A stretch of 10,300 nt of DNA from Bryobacterales bacterium (GTDB lineage: Bacteria > Acidobacteriota > Terriglobia > Bryobacterales > Bryobacteraceae). The stretch lies in NCBI GenBank assembly GCA_003164075.1, contig PLRZ01000590.1, positions 10,841-21,140 on the forward strand. The letters are read 5' to 3'. Below the pieces are notes generated by a model. The model did not search any database and had not been told where the DNA came from. It worked only from the letters and a program-made list of their open reading frames with translations. Within the stretch, counting starts at the first letter, position 1. Each line of letters begins with the position of its first letter. A program made the translations under genes and the position numbers. Below, piece by piece: positions 1 to 7,383 of this stretch.

Positions 1-1071
1 CATAATGTGGATCTCTGGCGGCAATCCGCGCCGGTGGGCGATTTCGGCTCGGGCTCGCCCACGTGGGCCAACTGGGCCATGAGCGGACCGTGGTTCTGCG
101 CCCACCTGTGGGAACACTACGCTTTCAGCGGCGACACCGCGTTTCTGCGGACCAAGGCCTGGCCGCCGATGAAAGGCGCGGCGGAATTCTGCCTGGATTG
201 GCTGGTGGAAGACAAGGCCGGCCGCCTTACCACCTGCCCCTCGGAATCCACCGAGAACGATTTCACCACGCCGGACGGCCACACTGCGCAAACCAGCGAC
301 GGCTGCACCATGGACATGGCGCTCATCTCCGAGCTTTTCTCAAATTGCGAAGAAGCGGCGCGAATCCTCGGGGTCGACGGCGAATTTGCGGCCAAACTGA
401 AAGCCGCGCGGGCGCGATTGATCCCGTTTCAGATCGGCAAGTTCGGCCAACTTCAGGAATGGTCCAAAGACTTCGTGGAGCATACGCCCGGGCAGCGGCA
501 CATGTCGCATATGTACCCGCTCTATCCGGGCAGCGCCATCACGCCGCGCCGCACGCCCGAACTGGCGAAGGCCGCGCGCATCTCGCTCGAGCGGCGGCTG
601 GCGGCGGGCGGCGCGTACACCGGTTGGAGCCGCGCCTGGGCCATCAACTTCTGGGCCCGCCTGCTGGACGGCGACAAGGCGTGGGAATCGGTATCCATGC
701 TCATGCAGCACAGCACCGGGCCGAATCTCTTCGACACGCATCCTTCCGGCAACTCGTGGGTCTTCCAGATCGATGGCAATTTCGGCGCCACGGCGGGCAT
801 CGCGGAGATGCTGCTGCAGAGTCACGATGGCGCCATTCACTTCCTGCCCGCGCTGCCCACGGCGTGGCCCAGCGGCAGCGTGAAAGGCCTGCGGGCGCGC
901 GGCGGTGTCACCGTGGATCTGGCTTGGGCAGGTGGAAAGGCTACCGGTGCGCAGCTCACGTGCAGCCTGGGGGGCCATCCGGAGTTGCGTCCGCCGAAGG
1001 GTCAACAGATCGCCGGCGTCGCCGATGTAGGTCGGGCCAGAGGCCGCGTCTATCGCGTGAGCTTCAAATAG
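1..1071 (+). CDS. GH95 alpha-L-fucosidase, C-terminal part (5' end outside window)
   Basis: The enzyme hydrolyses terminal alpha-1,2-linked (sometimes 1,3/1,4) L-fucose from glycans such as xyloglucan or host-type oligosaccharides, by inversion. The frame is open from base 1, beginning H-N-V-D-L-W, the GH95 motif usually read HNTDLW, so the GTG at 7 is not the true start. Counting from that GTG codon, the visible GH95 marks are CPSESTEN (77-84; the Glu at 83 corresponds to the family general acid), [11 protein letters not shown] (165-175), [19 protein letters not shown] (205-223), and QIDGNFG (254-260; Asp256 matches the family's catalytic Asp). A C-terminal beta domain follows from about 288 ([16 protein letters not shown]). 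About 356 residues are visible; GH95 proteins usually have about 750-800, so the N-terminal beta domain and the start of the (alpha/alpha)6 barrel lie upstream. Any signal peptide is also outside. The stop TAG overlaps the 3' end of the opposing maf gene by 22 bp. Family assignment is firm; the linkage specificity is not visible. Confidence 0.93.
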
Positions 1072-1601
1072 TGCCGGTAGACCAGCGCGACTGGTAAGCC
1101 CACCACGTTGAAGTAGCAGCCTTCGATCCGGGGAATGAACTTCGACGCCGCCCCCTGCACGGCATATGCGCCGGCCTTATCCATGGGCTCCCCGGAGGAC
1201 ACGTAGTGGTCGATATCCCGCGCGCTCATGGGCGCAAACCAGACTTCGGTGACGGCGTGATCGCGAATCCGCCGCTCCCCGCGCTGGAGGCAAATCCCGG
1301 TCATCACCTGGTGGCTGCGCCCGGAAAGCATGGCCAGCATGCGGCGCGCGTCGGCGGCGTCGGCAGGCTTGCCGAGCATCTCGTGGTCCACCACCACGGT
1401 GGTGTCGGCGCCGAGCACGATTTCGTCCGCGGCCGCCGCCACGGCGCGCGCTTTGGCCTCCGCCAGGCGCTCGACATACTCCTCGGGCCTCTCTCCCGCC
1501 AGCGGCGTTTCGTCCACGGGGGCAACACGGACGATGAAGGGGATGCCGGCCTGGCGTAGGATTTCGGCGCGGCGCGGGGACTGCGAAGCGAGTACGAGCA
1601 T
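1050..1601 (-). CDS. maf: Maf/YhdE-type nucleoside triphosphate pyrophosphatase
   Basis: Maf proteins are house-cleaning enzymes that cut dTTP, UTP or modified pyrimidine NTPs to the monophosphate and pyrophosphate, keeping wrong nucleotides out of DNA and RNA; some affect septation when overexpressed. The protein has 183 residues, normal for the family. It opens with [12 protein letters not shown] (4-15), the substrate phosphate-binding signature, followed by [10 protein letters not shown] (62-71) with the catalytic Asp66, [14 protein letters not shown] (76-89), [11 protein letters not shown] (93-103) and [10 protein letters not shown] (141-150). The last motif is typical of the dTTP/UTP-specific YhdE group rather than the YceF group. 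The ATG at 1601 is chosen because the family starts directly with the LASxSPRR strand. A purine-rich AAAGGA lies only 2 bp before it, an unusually short spacing. The 3' end runs 22 bp into the fucosidase gene on the other strand. A 48-bp spacer separates its start from the divergent ppk2. Confidence 0.95.
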
Positions 1602-1635
1602 CGTCCTTTACGATGCCATACTCCGTCCGAGGTTG

Positions 1636-1641
1636 TAGAAT
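1636..1641 (+). promoter_or_regulatory. Possible -10 box (TAGAAT) for ppk2 in the maf/ppk2 divergent spacer
   Basis: TAGAAT ends 8 bp before the ppk2 ATG, in the 48-bp spacer that must also hold the maf promoter. If used, the transcript would be almost leaderless. No convincing -35 hexamer is visible 16-18 bp upstream, and a weak AGGG 4 bp before the ATG is the only Shine-Dalgarno-like sequence. Low confidence. Confidence 0.25.
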
Positions 1642-1649
1642 AGGGCCGG

Positions 1650-2459
1650 ATGAAACATTTCGCGCAGGAACTCATCGTGGCGCCCGGATCGAAGATCAAA
1701 CTGGCAAAGTTCGATCCTGCCGACACGCTCGGCGTGGACAAGACGGCTGCGGCCGGCCAACTTACCACCAATCTCGAGCGGCTCTCGGCACTGCAATATA
1801 TGTTGTACGCCGAAGGGCGGCGCTCTCTGCTGGTGGTGCTACAGGGCATCGATGCCGGCGGCAAGGACGGCACCATCAAGCACGTCATGAGCGGGCTCAA
1901 TCCGCAGGGCGTGGACGTGACGTCGTTCAAGGTCCCGGAGGGCGCGGAAAAGCGCCACGACTATCTCTGGCGCGTCCACAACGCGGTGCCCGAATGGGGC
2001 AAGATCGGCATTTTCAACCGCTCCCACTATGAGGACGTGCTGGTGGTGCGGGTGCACGGCCTGGTGCCCAAACCGGTCTGGTCGGCGCGCTACGATCAGA
2101 TCAACGATTTCGAGCGTATGCTGGCCGCGAGCGGCGTGCGGATCGTAAAGTTCCTGCTGTATATCGGCAAAGAGGAGCAGGCCAAACGATTCCGCGAACG
2201 AATCGACGACAAGAGCAAGAACTGGAAATTCTCGCCGGCGGACCTGCAGGAGCGCAAATACTGGGACGAGTATACCGACGCCTACCAGGCCATGCTGCGG
2301 AAATGCAGCACGGAGCACGCGCCGTGGTACCTGATTCCGGCCAACCGCAAATGGTTCCGGGACCTCGCCGTGTCGCAGATTCTGTGCGAGACGCTGGAGA
2401 GCATGGACCTGAAATTTCCCAAGCCCGCGGCGGATCTCTCGGACATCAAGCTCGAATAA
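1650..2459 (+). CDS. ppk2: PPK2 family polyphosphate kinase, class III type
   Basis: The enzyme transfers phosphate from polyphosphate to nucleotides. Class III PPK2s can take AMP through ADP to ATP and also act on other nucleotides. The protein has 269 residues, matching the one-domain class III enzymes. Visible are the Walker A loop GIDAGGKDGT (66-75), SGLNPQGVDVTSF (81-93) and HDYLWRVHNAVP (103-114). The Walker B region IGIFNRSHYEDVLVVRVHGL (119-138) follows. RFRERIDDKSKNWKFSPAD, an Arg/Lys-rich lid segment, lies at about 180-198, and APWYLIPANRKWFRD near the C-terminus. These blocks agree closely with my memory of the Meiothermus class III enzyme. The ATG at 1650 fits the family's short N-terminal extension before the FDP..T motif. 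The gene stands alone, divergent from maf. No terminator is evident after the stop; the downstream 220 bp are repeat-rich. Class assignment is from motif resemblance only. Confidence 0.94.
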   Translation: MKHFAQELIVAPGSKIKLAKFDPADTLGVDKTAAAGQLTTNLERLSALQYMLYAEGRRSLLVVLQGIDAGGKDGTIKHVMSGLNPQGVDVTSFKVPEGAEKRHDYLWRVHNAVPEWGKIGIFNRSHYEDVLVVRVHGLVPKPVWSARYDQINDFERMLAASGVRIVKFLLYIGKEEQAKRFRERIDDKSKNWKFSPADLQERKYWDEYTDAYQAMLRKCSTEHAPWYLIPANRKWFRDLAVSQILCETLESMDLKFPKPAADLSDIKLE

Positions 2460-2501
2460 CGCTCCCTAACGCCGCCCTGCCGGAAAAGAGGAAACACAAG
2501 A

Positions 2502-2533
2502 TTCACCACGGAGGCACAGAGACACGGAGAAAA
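2502..2533 (+). repeat. CACGGAG/CACAGAG tandem motif, copy 1
   Basis: Three heptamer-like units (CACGGAG, CACAGAG, CACGGAG) follow one another at an 8-9 bp step and end in GAAAA, just after ppk2. The same type of unit recurs at 2585-2622 in the same orientation. This CACGGAG/CACAGAG motif is, from memory, a widespread intergenic repeat in environmental bacteria; read on the minus strand it yields spurious ORFs rich in Leu-Cys. No function is known to me. Confidence 0.6.
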
Positions 2534-2541
2534 GCCAAAGA

Positions 2542-2560
2542 AATGTCGTTAGGTGACATT
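2542..2560. repeat. Small inverted repeat between the two CACAGAG motifs
   Basis: AATGTC at 2542-2547 and GACATT at 2555-2560 are perfect reverse complements, and a G-T wobble adds a seventh pair around a TTAGG loop. It sits between two same-direction repeat blocks. There is no T-tract, so it is not an evident intrinsic terminator. Confidence 0.4.
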
Positions 2561-2584
2561 GCGGTCGCGTGCTTGTCGTGGTGA

Positions 2585-2622
2585 TTTTGAGGTCACAGAG
2601 GGGACAGAGATCACAGAGAAAA
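2585..2622 (+). repeat. CACAGAG tandem motif, copy 2
   Basis: Units CACAGAG, GACAGAG and CACAGAG are spaced 9-10 bp apart, preceded by TTTTGAGGT and followed by AAAA. It lies about 50 bp after copy 1 and in the same orientation, so together with the hairpin at 2542-2560 it forms a compact repeat-hairpin-repeat block. Confidence 0.6.
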
Positions 2623-2680
2623 CGTGAAGAACGGGCACACTGCCGCTTACCGAGCCGCGACCGCAAGGGAGCGGACAGCC

Positions 2681-3304
2681 CTACTCGTAACGGAGCGCCA
2701 CCATGGGATCTACGTGCGCCGCGCGACGCGCCGGCAGATAGGCCGCCAGTAGCGCCACAGCCATCATCGGCACGGCGCCCGTCACCGGCAGACCGGTAAT
2801 CAGGCTCGCGGCGAAATGCCTGCCCCAGAGAGCCAGAGGCACTCCCATCGCCAGACCCGCGCCGGCCATCCCCAGCGCGTCCACCAGCACCATCAGAACT
2901 CCTGATGTCGTGGAATTTGCAGTGAGCCCGCAGGTGGGGCAGGCGGTGCTCGCCTTCGCTCGATCCTATTCGAGCAGCGGGCCTAATTCAGCGCGGGCGG
3001 GCAGGCGGCACCGCCTGCCCCACCTGCCAACCTCTCGCCATCGAAAGCAATGGCTCAGCCCATTTTCCCCGCCAGGCAGAAATTGCGGGGCGATATTAGG
3101 AGTTCTGACCAGGCGAGCCACATCGCCGCGCGTCGCCCTCAGCGCCATGCGAATGCCGATTTCGTTGGTCCGTAGCGTCACCGTGTACGCCAGCAGCCCG
3201 TAGAGTCCGATCGCCGGCGATCCCAACGCGCCGAACAGCGTGGAGAGCGTCTCTACCGGCACGCCTTTCAGTACGGCGCCCGCCGTCAGTCGCACCTCGC
3301 GCGA
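2681..3304 (-). pseudogene. C-terminal remnant of an ABC transporter permease (ADOP/MacB-FtsX type), split by a MITE
   Basis: Reading leftward on the minus strand, the upstream piece contains [10 protein letters not shown], then [23 protein letters not shown] and TRGDVARLV. This is the conserved transmembrane and cytoplasmic stretch near the end of ADOP permeases. The coding is then interrupted by the element at 2893-3108. It resumes at 2892 with VDALGMAGAGLAMGVPLAL and AVALLAAYLPARRA, and ends HVDPMVALRYE, the classic family terminus, with stop TAG at 2681-2683. Removing the element plus one CCA copy (219 bp, 73 codons) rejoins GDVARLVLVDALGMAGAG exactly in the family pattern. Within the element the same frame meets a TAG at 2966-2968, so the product would be cut. 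Only about 130 of roughly 800 expected residues remain, and homology fades left of about codon 15 of the fragment, next to the esterase 3' end. The segment before AIGLYG also looks a few residues short. It was therefore probably a dead fragment by deletion as well as by insertion; the order of events is not visible. Confidence 0.85.
2893..3108. mobile_element. 216-bp MITE-like element, copy 1 (18-bp TIRs, 3-bp TSD)
   Basis: The left end 2893-2910 (TCAGAACTCCTGATGTCG) and the reverse complement of the right end 3091-3108 agree at 16 of 18 positions. Flanking CCA occurs at 2890-2892 and 3109-3111, as expected for a 3-bp target duplication; a 4-bp ACCA reading is equally possible if the last A is host DNA. 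The inside is palindromic: GGTGGGGCAGGCGGTG (2933-2948) pairs perfectly with 3009-3024. A local hairpin of 10 bp (2999-3008 with 3011-3020) adds a REPIN-like shape, and GCTCGA/TCGAGC (2957-2962 with 2969-2974) forms a small stem at the centre. CCCCGC/GCGGGG (3067-3072 with 3085-3090) stems the right arm. No transposase is encoded, so it would need one in trans. A second copy of the left 133 bp is at 7128. Confidence 0.85.
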
Positions 3305-3311
3305 GCAAGCG

Positions 3312-4592
3312 TTATTTGCGGGTGAACTCTTCGTTAGGCTGGAACGCGCCCCCGTGCAAGAGGATATCGAGCACTTCCTTGGAGCGAGAAACGAACGCGC
3401 CCTGTTTTTGCGGCGTCCGATTATTGTGGTCCGACTCGATCATGGGCACCGCTTCCTTGGGCCCCGGAATTTGATTGAGGGCGGTCCAAATTCCAGCCGG
3501 CGGAGAGGTGGTGTCGATGAAGCCCATGGCGGCGAGCACCGGCGCTTTGATCCGCGAGGCAAAATTGACGACATCGAAATAGGGAGCCGTGGCCATCACT
3601 CGGGGATCGTTGGAGGGCCAGTTCGGGTAGCCCGTCTGGCGGCCGTGGAGCTCGCCGTTCATATCCGCGCCGGAGGGTTCGTTCACGATCACGGCGGATA
3701 CCTGGGGACGCAGGCCCGCGGTGACCAGGCTCTGTTGTCCGCCCATGCTGGTGCCCATGAGGACCAGGGTCTTGCCGTCCCAATCGGGGCGGCTGCAGAT
3801 GTAATCCACGGCGCGCGCGTCGCGGAGATACATATAGAGGAAATACGACGTCTCCCGGTTGAGGTTCCCTATCGCCTGGTAGCTGGGGCTGACGCTGGCA
3901 GCCTGGTCGGGCGGCATGTCGTGCGAGTCCACGTCGAAAGCGAGCCAGCCTTCGGCGGCGCGGTCGGTGACGGTATTGGGCTGCAGGGCATACACGCCGG
4001 CGTACTGGTAAACGATCAGCGCGGGAAACTTGCCCAGCTTGATCGGCTTGGCGAGATAGCCATGAACGCGCGAGCCCACGCCATCGAGCTGGACCGTGGA
4101 TAACTCCACGCCAGCCTGGGGAGTTGCCACCGGGTTCATGACGGCGCTGATGGGGGTGACGCTGAGGTATTGCAGTTTATTGAACCAGAAGGCGTCGAAA
4201 TCGGCGGGACGCGGCACGGACGGCTTCAACTGTGTAGGAGCAATTGCCGCGCCAAGGTGGACGGCGGAAGCCGGCGGGGCGCCTTCCGCGCGTACCGTCA
4301 CGTAGAGCATGGCCGGCTCTTCGAGCGTGGTTTCAATGGTGGCGCTGCCGGAGGCGAGATCGAGCGTGCCCGTCTTGATCGAGTCGAAGTTATTCTTCTT
4401 GATGTCGTAGGTGTACTTCGCGGCGGGTGCGGCGGCGGCCTGCGGCAGCGATACCGTCCAGCCGGCTTTCTCCCCCAGGCGGTAAATGCCGGTGCGGTTG
4501 AACGGTACGAAGTTCAACTGCTGGGCCTCTGCCAGGGATGCGAAGAGGAGCAGCGCTAAGCCAGCGGCGGATAAACGCAAATGGCGGTTCAT
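3312..4592 (-). CDS. Secreted acetyl esterase, CE7 family (acetyl xylan esterase/cephalosporin C deacetylase type)
   Basis: This alpha/beta hydrolase is predicted to remove acetyl groups from xylan, xylo-oligosaccharides or similar small acetylated substrates. The 426-residue protein starts with a signal peptide: basic MNRHLR, a hydrophobic core at about 9-20, and a likely cut after AEA (21-23). An extra all-beta-looking N-terminal region (about 27-120) precedes the CE7 domain, which begins at [11 protein letters not shown] (127-137). The predicted catalytic residues are Ser282 in MGTSMGGQQ, Asp360 in GFIDTTSPP, and His389 in ESDHNNR, in the usual order and spacing. CE7 enzymes normally show GxSQGG, so Met in place of Gln next to the nucleophile is unusual, since that Gln is family-conserved and close to the oxyanion hole. 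The start ATG at 4592 is chosen because it gives the signal peptide. No strong Shine-Dalgarno is visible. The gene appears monocistronic; the permease remnant follows directly. Substrate is inferred from the family only. Confidence 0.85.
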
Positions 4593-4882: not shown

Positions 4883-5107
4883 CTAGAGCCGGTCTTCCGG
4901 GGCCGGTTCGGCGGCAGGAACCTTGTCCAAGGCGGCTAGGAAACGTTCGCGACTGCCGAGTTCGGCCATTCGCTCAACGCGGCTCCAGCCGGAAAGCTGG
5001 TCGGCCAAGGCCGCCGCCACGATCCGCTCCACCGAAACCTGCTGCTGCGCCGCCAATTCGGCAATCTGGCGGTATACCGTGTCGGGTACTGTCACGTTGA
5101 ACGTCAT
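4883..5107 (-). CDS. Ribbon-helix-helix-like antitoxin of a PIN toxin-antitoxin pair
   Basis: A 74-residue protein that would bind and silence the PIN toxin encoded upstream and, by its N-terminal part, bind the operator. The N-terminus MTFNVTVPDTVYRQIAELAA has the beta-strand-then-helix pattern of ribbon-helix-helix antitoxins (strand about 2-8, helix A about 9-20, helix B about 25-38 starting VSVERIVAAAL). The C-terminal half (about 40-74) is charged, Ala/Pro/Glu-rich and probably disordered until bound to toxin. The ATG overlaps the ancestral toxin stop as ATGA (5104-5107). A GGAG at 5115-5118, 7 nt before the ATG, gives it its own Shine-Dalgarno, so it can be made although the toxin now ends early. 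The frame appears intact. Exact family is not certain because such proteins are short and divergent. Confidence 0.75.
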   Translation of the reverse strand: MTFNVTVPDTVYRQIAELAAQQQVSVERIVAAALADQLSGWSRVERMAELGSRERFLAALDKVPAAEPAPEDRL

Positions 5108-5526
5108 CGTACTTCTCCCATTGTCGCAAGGAATTCGCGAGGTGAGATCACTCGAACGCCGAAGCGCTCCGCACCCGCAAAATCTCAGGTGTTGAAGGTA
5201 ATTATGAAATCTGCCCGGCTTTCGACGGCCAGTTCCAGAACAAAATCATCCTTTGGATCGGGCAGGAATGGTCGCCAAAGAAAGAAGATCGGGCGCAGAT
5301 TCGCGTTGGCGCATAGAAAGTGCACTACGCTATCAATATCGCTGCCGCTCAGATCTCCGCCTGTGCAGACGCGCTTGAGTGTCTGCTCATACTCGAAAAC
5401 CAAGGGCACGGAGAGGTTGATGCGCCATCGATGATCGCCCACCAACCGCAGCAGGCGGTGAGACGCTCCACGATTGGAGAGCAGCGCGGCGGCAACCACG
5501 TTGGTGTCGATCACTACCTGGTACAT
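5104..5526 (-). pseudogene. PIN-domain toxin (COG1569/TIGR00305 type) with an in-frame TGA
   Basis: PIN toxins are Mg-dependent ribonucleases. The frame from ATG at 5526 reads MYQVVIDTNVVAAALLSNRG (first acidic residue Asp7), then LVFEYEQTL (Glu at about 45), FLPDPKDDFVLELAVESRAD and FIITFNT. A TGA follows at 5185-5187. Continuing the same frame gives DFAGAERFGVRVISPREF and ends in TGA at 5104-5106. Family members end with TFNxRDF...FGI.V.TPxEFL and have about 140 residues, so the TGA stands exactly where Arg is expected, and CGA to TGA is one transition. The whole frame is 141 codons including that TGA; the shortened product would have 113 residues and lack the last beta strand and the Asp of RDF. 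The 4-bp ATGA overlap with the antitoxin start supports the longer ancestral gene. The toxin-first order is less usual. Alternatives are a sequencing error or stop readthrough; a still-active 113-residue form cannot be excluded. Confidence 0.8.
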
Positions 5527-6294: not shown

Positions 6295-6418
6295 TTTGGG
6301 ATGGTTCCGAACCGGACGGGGTTCAAGAGAAGTACTACTCTCAGTCTATCATTCACCCGCGCCGGCGTAAGCGGGGTGCTTAGGCGCTTTAGGGCATGGA
6401 TGCCAGATTGCGCGTGGG

Positions 6419-6455
6419 GCAGCCGTTCTTGGCTGCATGCCGCCTCTCAGGCGGC
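6419..6455. repeat. Pair of adjacent perfect hairpins (REP-like)
   Basis: GCAGCC (6419-6424) pairs with GGCTGC (6431-6436) around GTTCTT. Two bases on, GCCGCCT (6439-6445) pairs with AGGCGGC (6449-6455) around CTC. The first hairpin with its GTGG prefix recurs at 10276-10295, so this is an interspersed repeat rather than a one-off. No T-tract follows, which argues against an ordinary terminator. It lies in the 265-bp gap before higB. Confidence 0.6.
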
Positions 6456-6501
6456 GTTCGGCGGGGTGGGAAGACTCGCATCGAAAGCGCGGCTGAAAGC
6501 C

Positions 6502-6543
6502 CCAGTTCCGTAGGCCAATTGGAGCAAGCCGCCTTGGAACTGG
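6502..6543. repeat. 8-bp inverted repeat at the truncated 5' side of higB
   Basis: CCAGTTCC (6502-6509) and GGAACTGG (6536-6543) are perfect reverse complements separated by 26 bp, with the palindrome CCAATTGG in between. It ends 16 bp before the ATG of the shortened higB frame and may belong to the same repeat block as the hairpins at 6419-6455. Confidence 0.45.
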
Positions 6544-6559
6544 CTCCCTTGAGGAAAAC

Positions 6560-6736
6560 ATGCGATATAGATTCGGACATAGCCCGGGAGGTTCATTGCC
6601 TGAATCTTACCGACTGCACGAACTCAAAGGGAATCAGGCGGGTGTCTGGGCTGTCGTTGCGGACAAGAACTGGCGGGTTACCTTCCGCTTTGAAGGCGGC
6701 AACGCACACGATGTCGGTTTCGTTGATTATCATTAG
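6560..6736 (+). pseudogene. higB: HigB-type (RelE-like) toxin, 5'-truncated
   Basis: HigB cleaves mRNA on the ribosome. The 58-codon frame ends with the HigB core: YRLHELKGN, then VWAVVADKNWRVTFRFEGG and DVGFVDYH, with the typical final His directly before TAG. Family members have about 90 residues; here the N-terminal 30-35 residues (the first helices) are missing. Upstream in this frame there is a TGA at 6494, and no other frame shows a HigB N-terminus. Homology seems to begin near 6595; the DNA before it is palindromic repeat, which suggests that the 5' part was lost or replaced. The higA Shine-Dalgarno overlaps its stop, and higA starts 10 bp later, the normal toxin-antitoxin order for higBA. 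A working short toxin is not excluded but looks unlikely. Confidence 0.75.
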
Positions 6737-6746
6737 GGAGAATCCA

Positions 6747-7031
6747 ATGAGAATGAAGAACCCGCCCCATCCGGGCCGTATTGTTCGGGACGAATGTCTA
6801 GAGGCGCTGGGCCTCTCGGTGACGGCAGGCGCACGCATCCTCGGGGTGACGCGCCAGGCGCTTAATAATCTGGTGAATCAAAAGGCGGGCATTTCTCCCG
6901 AAATGGCGGTGCGGCTCACCAAAGCCTTCGGCAGCACTGCCGAAACCTGGCTCCGGATGCAGGTCACGTACGACCTCGCGCAGGTAGCCGAATCCGAAAT
7001 CGACGTGAAGCCGTACCGTAAAGCATCCTGA
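6747..7031 (+). CDS. higA: HigA-family XRE antitoxin
   Basis: The 94-residue antitoxin would neutralise HigB and repress its own operon through a helix-turn-helix. The opening NPPHPGRIVRDECLEALGLS (5-24) is the HigA signature, followed by the XRE helix-turn-helix VTAGARILGVTRQALNNLVN (25-44). Then comes AGISPEMAVRLTKAFGSTAETWLRMQ (47-72), with the conserved WLRMQ and the dimer helix, and YDLAQ. The ATG at 6747 is chosen over any upstream start in the longer open frame. It has an AGGGAG Shine-Dalgarno at 6735-6740 with 6 bp spacing, it gives the standard family N-terminus, and the frame upstream of it is repeat DNA plus higB in another frame. The gene appears intact although its toxin partner is truncated. 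Product and family are firm. Confidence 0.93.
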   Translation: MRMKNPPHPGRIVRDECLEALGLSVTAGARILGVTRQALNNLVNQKAGISPEMAVRLTKAFGSTAETWLRMQVTYDLAQVAESEIDVKPYRKAS

Positions 7032-7127: not shown

Positions 7128-7260
7128 TCAGAACTCCTGATGTCGTGGAATCTGCAGTGAGCCCGAAGGTGGGGCAGGCGGTGCTCGCCTGCCCTCTATC
7201 CTATTCGAGCAGCGGGCCTAATTCAGCGCGGGCAGGCAGGCGGCACCGCCTGCCCCACCT
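7128..7260. mobile_element. MITE-like element, copy 2, right end missing or diverged
   Basis: These 133 bp match 2893-3025 with 6 differences counted by eye (about 95% identity), starting with the same TCAGAACTCCTGATGTCG terminus. The long stem is kept (7168-7183 with 7244-7259). This copy also has a perfect 9-bp local hairpin GGGCAGGCG/CGCCTGCCC around GTGCT (7172-7194), which copy 1 has partly lost. After 7260 only a faint resemblance to copy 1 persists for about 20 bp, and no right terminal repeat (AGGAGTTCTGA) is found before the kinase gene. It lies between the convergent ends of higA and the kinase gene, in a 352-bp gap with no other recognised feature. Confidence 0.8.
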
Positions 7261-7383
7261 TCGAAGCTCCCGCCATGGAGTGGAGCCAAAAGCCCTCCAC
7301 CGGCAACCGCCCAAATCGCTCGTTGCAGTCAGTGCCTACATGGACCGCGCCTCCACGCGGCGCCCCGCCTGAATGCCGAGAGC

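Follow-up and report, generated by a model that had tools for sequence, protein, structure and literature searches.

MITEAba12 and the miniature inverted-repeat transposable elements (MITEs) of other bacterial insertion sequences are short, non-autonomous and derived from insertion sequences. The element analyzed here resembles them in these respects. It occupies positions 2893-3108 (minus strand) of a 10,300-nucleotide stretch of Bryobacterales DNA, and this whole 10.3-kb stretch is called the window. The 216-bp element is very probably a miniature, non-autonomous derivative of an insertion sequence encoding a Transposase_29 (PF21804) protein, mobilized in trans by an enzyme of this family. 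As a kind, it is an ordinary MITE. What is new is its link to the Transposase_29 family, which draws on its ends, its target-site duplication and an end structure found across the family.

The element, its second copy and the interrupted permease fragment

The element is bounded by 18-nt terminal inverted repeats, TCAGAACTCCTGATGTCG on the plus strand at 2893-2910 and its counterpart on the minus strand at 3091-3108. Compared as inverted repeats, they match at 16 of 18 positions (89% complementary). CCA at 2890-2892 and CCA at 3109-3111 are the left and right copies of a target-site duplication, an assignment that agrees with the 3-bp duplications common among related end pairs (below). No open reading frame (ORF) of at least 60 amino acids lies wholly within 2893-3108, and the element is thus short, non-coding and flanked by inverted repeats, with a target-site duplication and an empty site that can be reconstructed. 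Beyond the 18-nt repeat, the two ends differ from each other. The middle block contains a perfect 20-bp inverted repeat at 2930-3027, with arms at 2930-2949 and 3008-3027 and a 58-nt spacer.

Excision of 219 bp, the element plus one CCA, yields a single frame through ...GDVARLVLVDALGMAGAG..., and with the element in place the sole stop ahead of the gene's own stop in this frame lies inside the element. The rejoined fragment of 132 residues aligns to MacB permeases of solved structure, with no gap where its two parts meet (5gko_A, E 2e-7; 5lil_A, E 3.8e-7). Its match to PF02687 is weak (E 4e-4, under Pfam's cut-off). The permease is a 5'-truncated 3' fragment of about 132 codons, of FtsX/MacB type and on the minus strand; its C-terminal portion is at 2681-2889, and the portion upstream of the insertion is at 3112-3295. 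An AXE1-type hydrolase gene on the same strand, with its stop at 3312, is immediately upstream of the fragment.

A sequence-only reading of this DNA had proposed a MITE-like element of this length with a reconstructable empty site. Its repeats and its CCA flanks were found again at the same coordinates, and its account of a frame restored by removing 219 bp and interrupted by the element's own stop alone also holds. That reading had placed the element in an ABC permease gene; the permease frame stands, and the gene proves to be a truncated fragment rather than intact. Permease relatives that naturally contain the segment would have spoken against an insertion, and the aligned MacB relatives lack it.

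A second copy, absent from the sequence-only reading, is located at 7128-7279 on the minus strand, and brings the copy number in the window to two. Sequence comparison gives 93% identity with the element over the first 152 nt. This copy begins at the identical TCAG, and its left flank is unrelated to that of the first copy, so the left boundary is fixed independently; the sequence-only reading had held that copies running past 2893 would undermine the element's limits. On the other side, the homology stops 7 nt short of the right-end box. A scan of about 700 bp near this point and past it finds no right repeat (at best 11 of 18 bases agree), so the right end of this copy is gone. The middle block, with a perfect inverted repeat of 20-21 bp, is common to the two copies. 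At one stem pair both bases differ from copy to copy, which is only a hint when two sequences are compared. The second copy sits between an HTH_3 (HigA-like) gene and a gene of 906 amino acids that by eye reads as a kinase-TPR protein.

Transposase_29 insertion sequences and their two end types

The exact 18-nt left end is present in 31 stretches of genome_contigs. Twenty-four of these belong to five metagenome-assembled genomes (MAGs) labeled Deltaproteobacteria, 'Proteobacteria' or Desulfurivibrio, and two to Acidobacteriota MAGs, one Blastocatellia and one gp5 Acidobacteria. The other five were set aside as chance occurrences, having neither a partner end nor a shared continuation. Seven genomes searched whole contain 11 to 28 end matches each with at most two mismatches, versus 0 or 1 for the reversed pattern. 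Within the class of the gp5 genome, the end pattern is found without mismatch in 7 of 151 genomes, and at L076:699-3045 a perfect pair of ends lies 2347 bp apart on a single contig. The DNA between them codes for a helix-turn-helix (HTH) protein and a 620-residue frame that matches PF21804 (Transposase_29) with E 1.2e-169, the only transposase family that Pfam assigns to it.

The same ends as those of the window element bound insertion sequences of about 2.3-2.4 kb that carry Transposase_29 and HTH proteins. Four are complete. L129 (2335 bp, CTT/CTT) and L138 (2440 bp, ACT/ACT) are flanked by duplications; L076 and L130 are not. In a fifth case, L139 (2791 bp, ACT/ACT), the ends are poorer and the PF21804 gene is split into two pieces. 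The sequence-only reading had suggested looking for an insertion sequence with these ends that leaves 3-bp duplications, and L129 is of this description. That reading knew of no named family with such ends; they can now be assigned to Transposase_29 insertion sequences, which answers the point in part.

The repeat accompanies the transposase gene. It lies within 150 bp downstream of the C-terminal end in 27 of 33 PF21804 genes with up to two mismatches and in 31 of 33 with up to four, versus 0 and 2 of 217 control windows. An upstream repeat is found at six of the eight N-terminal ends where this can be assessed. In searches that scored only a few candidates per genome, PF21804 is matched by 6 of 13 genomes bearing the ends. 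In phylum samples searched likewise, it is matched by 10 of 396 Acidobacteriota (the central genome, G006, counted) and in 2 of 247 genomes of the phylum of G004 (itself counted), one of the two above the cut-off. Loci first brought in by these samples have the repeat in 11 of 17 cases with up to two mismatches and in 15 of 17 with up to four, a fairer count because the 13-genome set had been chosen by the repeat. In G004 and G007, the C-termini of Transposase_29 accumulate at contig starts (for example L101, L103, L104 and L106-L111), as is expected because multi-copy elements break assemblies.

One search returned at least 7905 relatives of the transposase, and those listed are mostly unnamed or labeled hypothetical proteins or transposases. 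The modelled fold is that of a Tn5-like DDE transposase, at about 12% identity over the aligned part, as in the IS4/Tn5 family. Curated models give no such placement: the L076 transposase has four matches in NCBIfam (E up to 1), and none is an insertion-sequence model. Precomputed annotation also places PF01609 (DDE_Tnp_1) on some PF21804 proteins (P0271, P0273, P0274 and others), in agreement with the Tn5-like model. The L129 protein has no match among 72,556 plasmid records. Over 91% of its length, the transposase at L129:1280-3133 (minus strand), from a genome of the Acidobacteriota sample, has 97% identity to P0001 from a Nitrospiraceae MAG; either the gene passed recently from one phylum to another, or there was an error in binning.

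When the insertion sequences are oriented by the transposase gene, their upstream ends (UE) and downstream ends (DE) differ. A typical downstream end consists of the repeat, a GAATTT-like box at position 21 and TGAGCC at 31. A typical upstream end has the repeat, 23 nt, a GAAAA box at 42, and TGAGCC or TGAACC at 52. TGA is at 52 in five of six insertion-sequence upstream ends; of the 26 downstream ends, 8 have it at 31 and 19 have it at either 31 or 32 (11 of 17 distinct sequences). Alignments were made of five of the six upstream and seven of the 26 downstream insertion-sequence ends, plus five and six short-element ends. G42, A44, A45 and T52-G53-A54 are invariant in 11 chosen upstream-type ends, as are G32 and A33 in 15 chosen downstream-type ends.

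The window element has one end of each type. From 2893 to 2928 (plus strand), the repeat is followed by GAATTT at 21 (2913-2918) and TGAGCC at 31 (2923-2928). From 3108 back to 3052 (minus strand), it is followed by 23 nt, GAAAAT at 42 (3062-3067) and TGAGCC at 52 (3052-3057). The element is assigned to the minus strand because the downstream-type end is at 2893 and the upstream-type end at 3108. Score matrices were built, with the window and the first 18 nt left out, from five of the six upstream and five of the 26 downstream ends, picked by eye. The right end ranks 1 of 20508 window positions and outscores each of the 96920 positions elsewhere; the left end is at rank 22 of 20540. Shuffled sequences score as well in 0 of 20000 cases for the right end and 32 of 20000 for the left; with the types swapped, the scores are -52 and -44. 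With matrices from all six upstream ends, the right end is still first, and with all 17 distinct downstream ends the left end is at rank 235 of 20540; swapped scores from these fuller matrices are -48 and -23. On these ranks the right end is clearly of upstream type, and the left end is, with moderate support beyond the repeat, of downstream type.

The best reading is therefore that the element combines both ends of a Transposase_29 insertion sequence, on the minus strand, with a hairpin block between them. Because it has these ends and no gene, an enzyme encoded elsewhere most likely moved it. In the proposed mechanism, a DDE transposase supplied in trans, acting with the HTH protein or HTH domain that its insertion sequence also encodes, would recognize the downstream-type end at 2893 and the upstream-type end at 3108. 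Each end has a terminal repeat of about 17 bp and an inner GAA.../TGAGCC box that would be bound; in the upstream-type end this box lies 21 bp deeper. The transposase would then move the element, perhaps by a cut-and-paste route, and join it across a 3-bp stagger (CCA) into the FtsX/MacB permease fragment.

End pairs, target preference and short relatives

Ends were paired within loci by taking one best partner per left end, at lengths of 60-3000, with at most five summed mismatches and at most two at one end; those lying 8 bases or less from the edge of a locus were left out. This gives 35 pairs, several of which look spurious. Identical 3-bp flanks occur in 18 (window counted), where about 0.5 would be expected; 2-bp identity occurs in one, and identity of four or more in none. 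Among the 18 duplicated pairs, A precedes the duplication in 17 and T follows it in 16, and the duplication starts with A in 14 and finishes with T in 14. The target preference of the family is palindromic, YA-ANT-TR.

Of nine short elements from Acidobacteriota, six score above zero for an upstream-type end, and in four of the six the opposite end scores above zero as downstream type. One end of each type is found, as in the window element, in short relatives such as L047:1501-1814, L079:1028-1381, L087:3180-3317 and L089:3293-3636. These four are 138-354 bp long and have 3-bp duplications in every case except L079. Unlike the window element, they show no match to its middle block at E <=0.1, and this block has no convincing match among the 154 loci examined. 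L039, L040 and L007 score above zero as downstream type only, and four Deltaproteobacteria-type short elements are below zero throughout. An 81-bp element at L011:1485-1565 consists of two facing ends of Transposase_29 type flanked by GAT and AAT, with no duplication.

The window also contains other genes. A PIN_3 toxin-like ORF (5185-5526, minus strand, E 1.7e-18) adjoins a small ribbon-helix-helix-like ORF (4883-5107, minus strand, sub-threshold), and the two are likely a toxin-antitoxin pair. At 6396-7031 (plus strand), an HTH_3 domain (E 4.1e-8) stands at the end of a longer frame, in what looks like a HigA-type antitoxin gene.

Alternative explanations and comparison with described systems

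Several observations weigh against derivation from a Transposase_29 insertion sequence. Seven of the 13 genomes with the repeat show no PF21804 match, though drafts may break at such repeats, and the host's own partner transposase is a presumed one. The left end loses rank when all distinct downstream ends are used, and a distant member, L138, lacks both inner boxes. The window target, ca|CCA|gg, agrees with YA-ANT-TR on its left half only. The second copy is without a right end, and near-identical copies are absent from 396 Acidobacteriota genomes, at two candidates scored per genome, and from 15 and 10 genomes of two orders.

The absence of close copies from the sampled genomes would also suit a one-off remnant of a Transposase_29 insertion sequence, which lost its middle by internal deletion, kept both ends, and was dead on arrival and unable to propagate. 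This explanation is improbable. Two copies with the same middle block occupy different sites in the window, and the complete copy has its own target duplication, which suggests movement in the short form.

It is less probable still that the element belongs to another insertion-sequence family, for example an IS5-type one, with terminal bases alike by chance. One IS5 subgroup makes ANT duplications, which the preferred duplications here resemble; the moderate left-end match with all downstream ends and a host transposase that is only presumed leave some room for this. However, the inner boxes of the right end stand at the spacing of Transposase_29 upstream ends, and the repeat is found next to PF21804 genes but not at control windows. 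A regulatory hairpin repeat, or one like repetitive extragenic palindromic sequences, that was never transposed would account for the strong folding (z = -8.16 for the whole element and -5.52 for the second copy, each better than all 200 of its own shuffles), but it has next to no probability given the 3-bp duplications, the empty site, the insertion-sequence end match, and an Rfam match that is sub-threshold (21.7 bits versus 98). As part of a transposable element, the middle hairpin could have a role of its own.

Derivation from a Transposase_29 insertion sequence gives a miniature element that seemed an orphan a concrete enzyme family, with at least 7905 relatives. Annotation of these elements and tests of the transposase can draw on the ends, the spacing of the boxes, the length of the duplication and the preferred target. 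The finding is well supported, useful for annotation, and opens a simple transposition assay; it overturns nothing. The literature searched, in which PMC3174227 is represented by passages, yielded no paper on the Transposase_29 family, and the family may already be named in ISfinder. We tentatively suggest, with slightly less than even confidence, that Transposase_29 is a large insertion-sequence family undescribed in that literature. It would combine a Tn5-like transposase, terminal repeats common to Acidobacteriota and Deltaproteobacteria-type genomes, two unlike ends whose inner boxes are offset by about 21 bp, or two helical turns, the YA-ANT-TR preference, and a surrounding population of miniature elements with both ends retained, the window element included.

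Tn5-type DDE transposases belong to the IS4 family. Transposase_29 differs from them in its identity of about 12%, its larger size and its N-terminal HTH part. The insertion sequences at L129:1253-3587, L076:699-3045 and L130:1465-3814 have the terminal repeat and inner-box spacings of the window element, and that of L129 also has a 3-bp duplication. In contrast to these sequences of 2.3-2.4 kb, with their transposase and HTH protein, the window element encodes neither. It has in common with the family the terminal repeat, upstream-end boxes at 42 and 52, downstream-end boxes at 21 and 31 (a moderate match), and a duplication of 3 bp.
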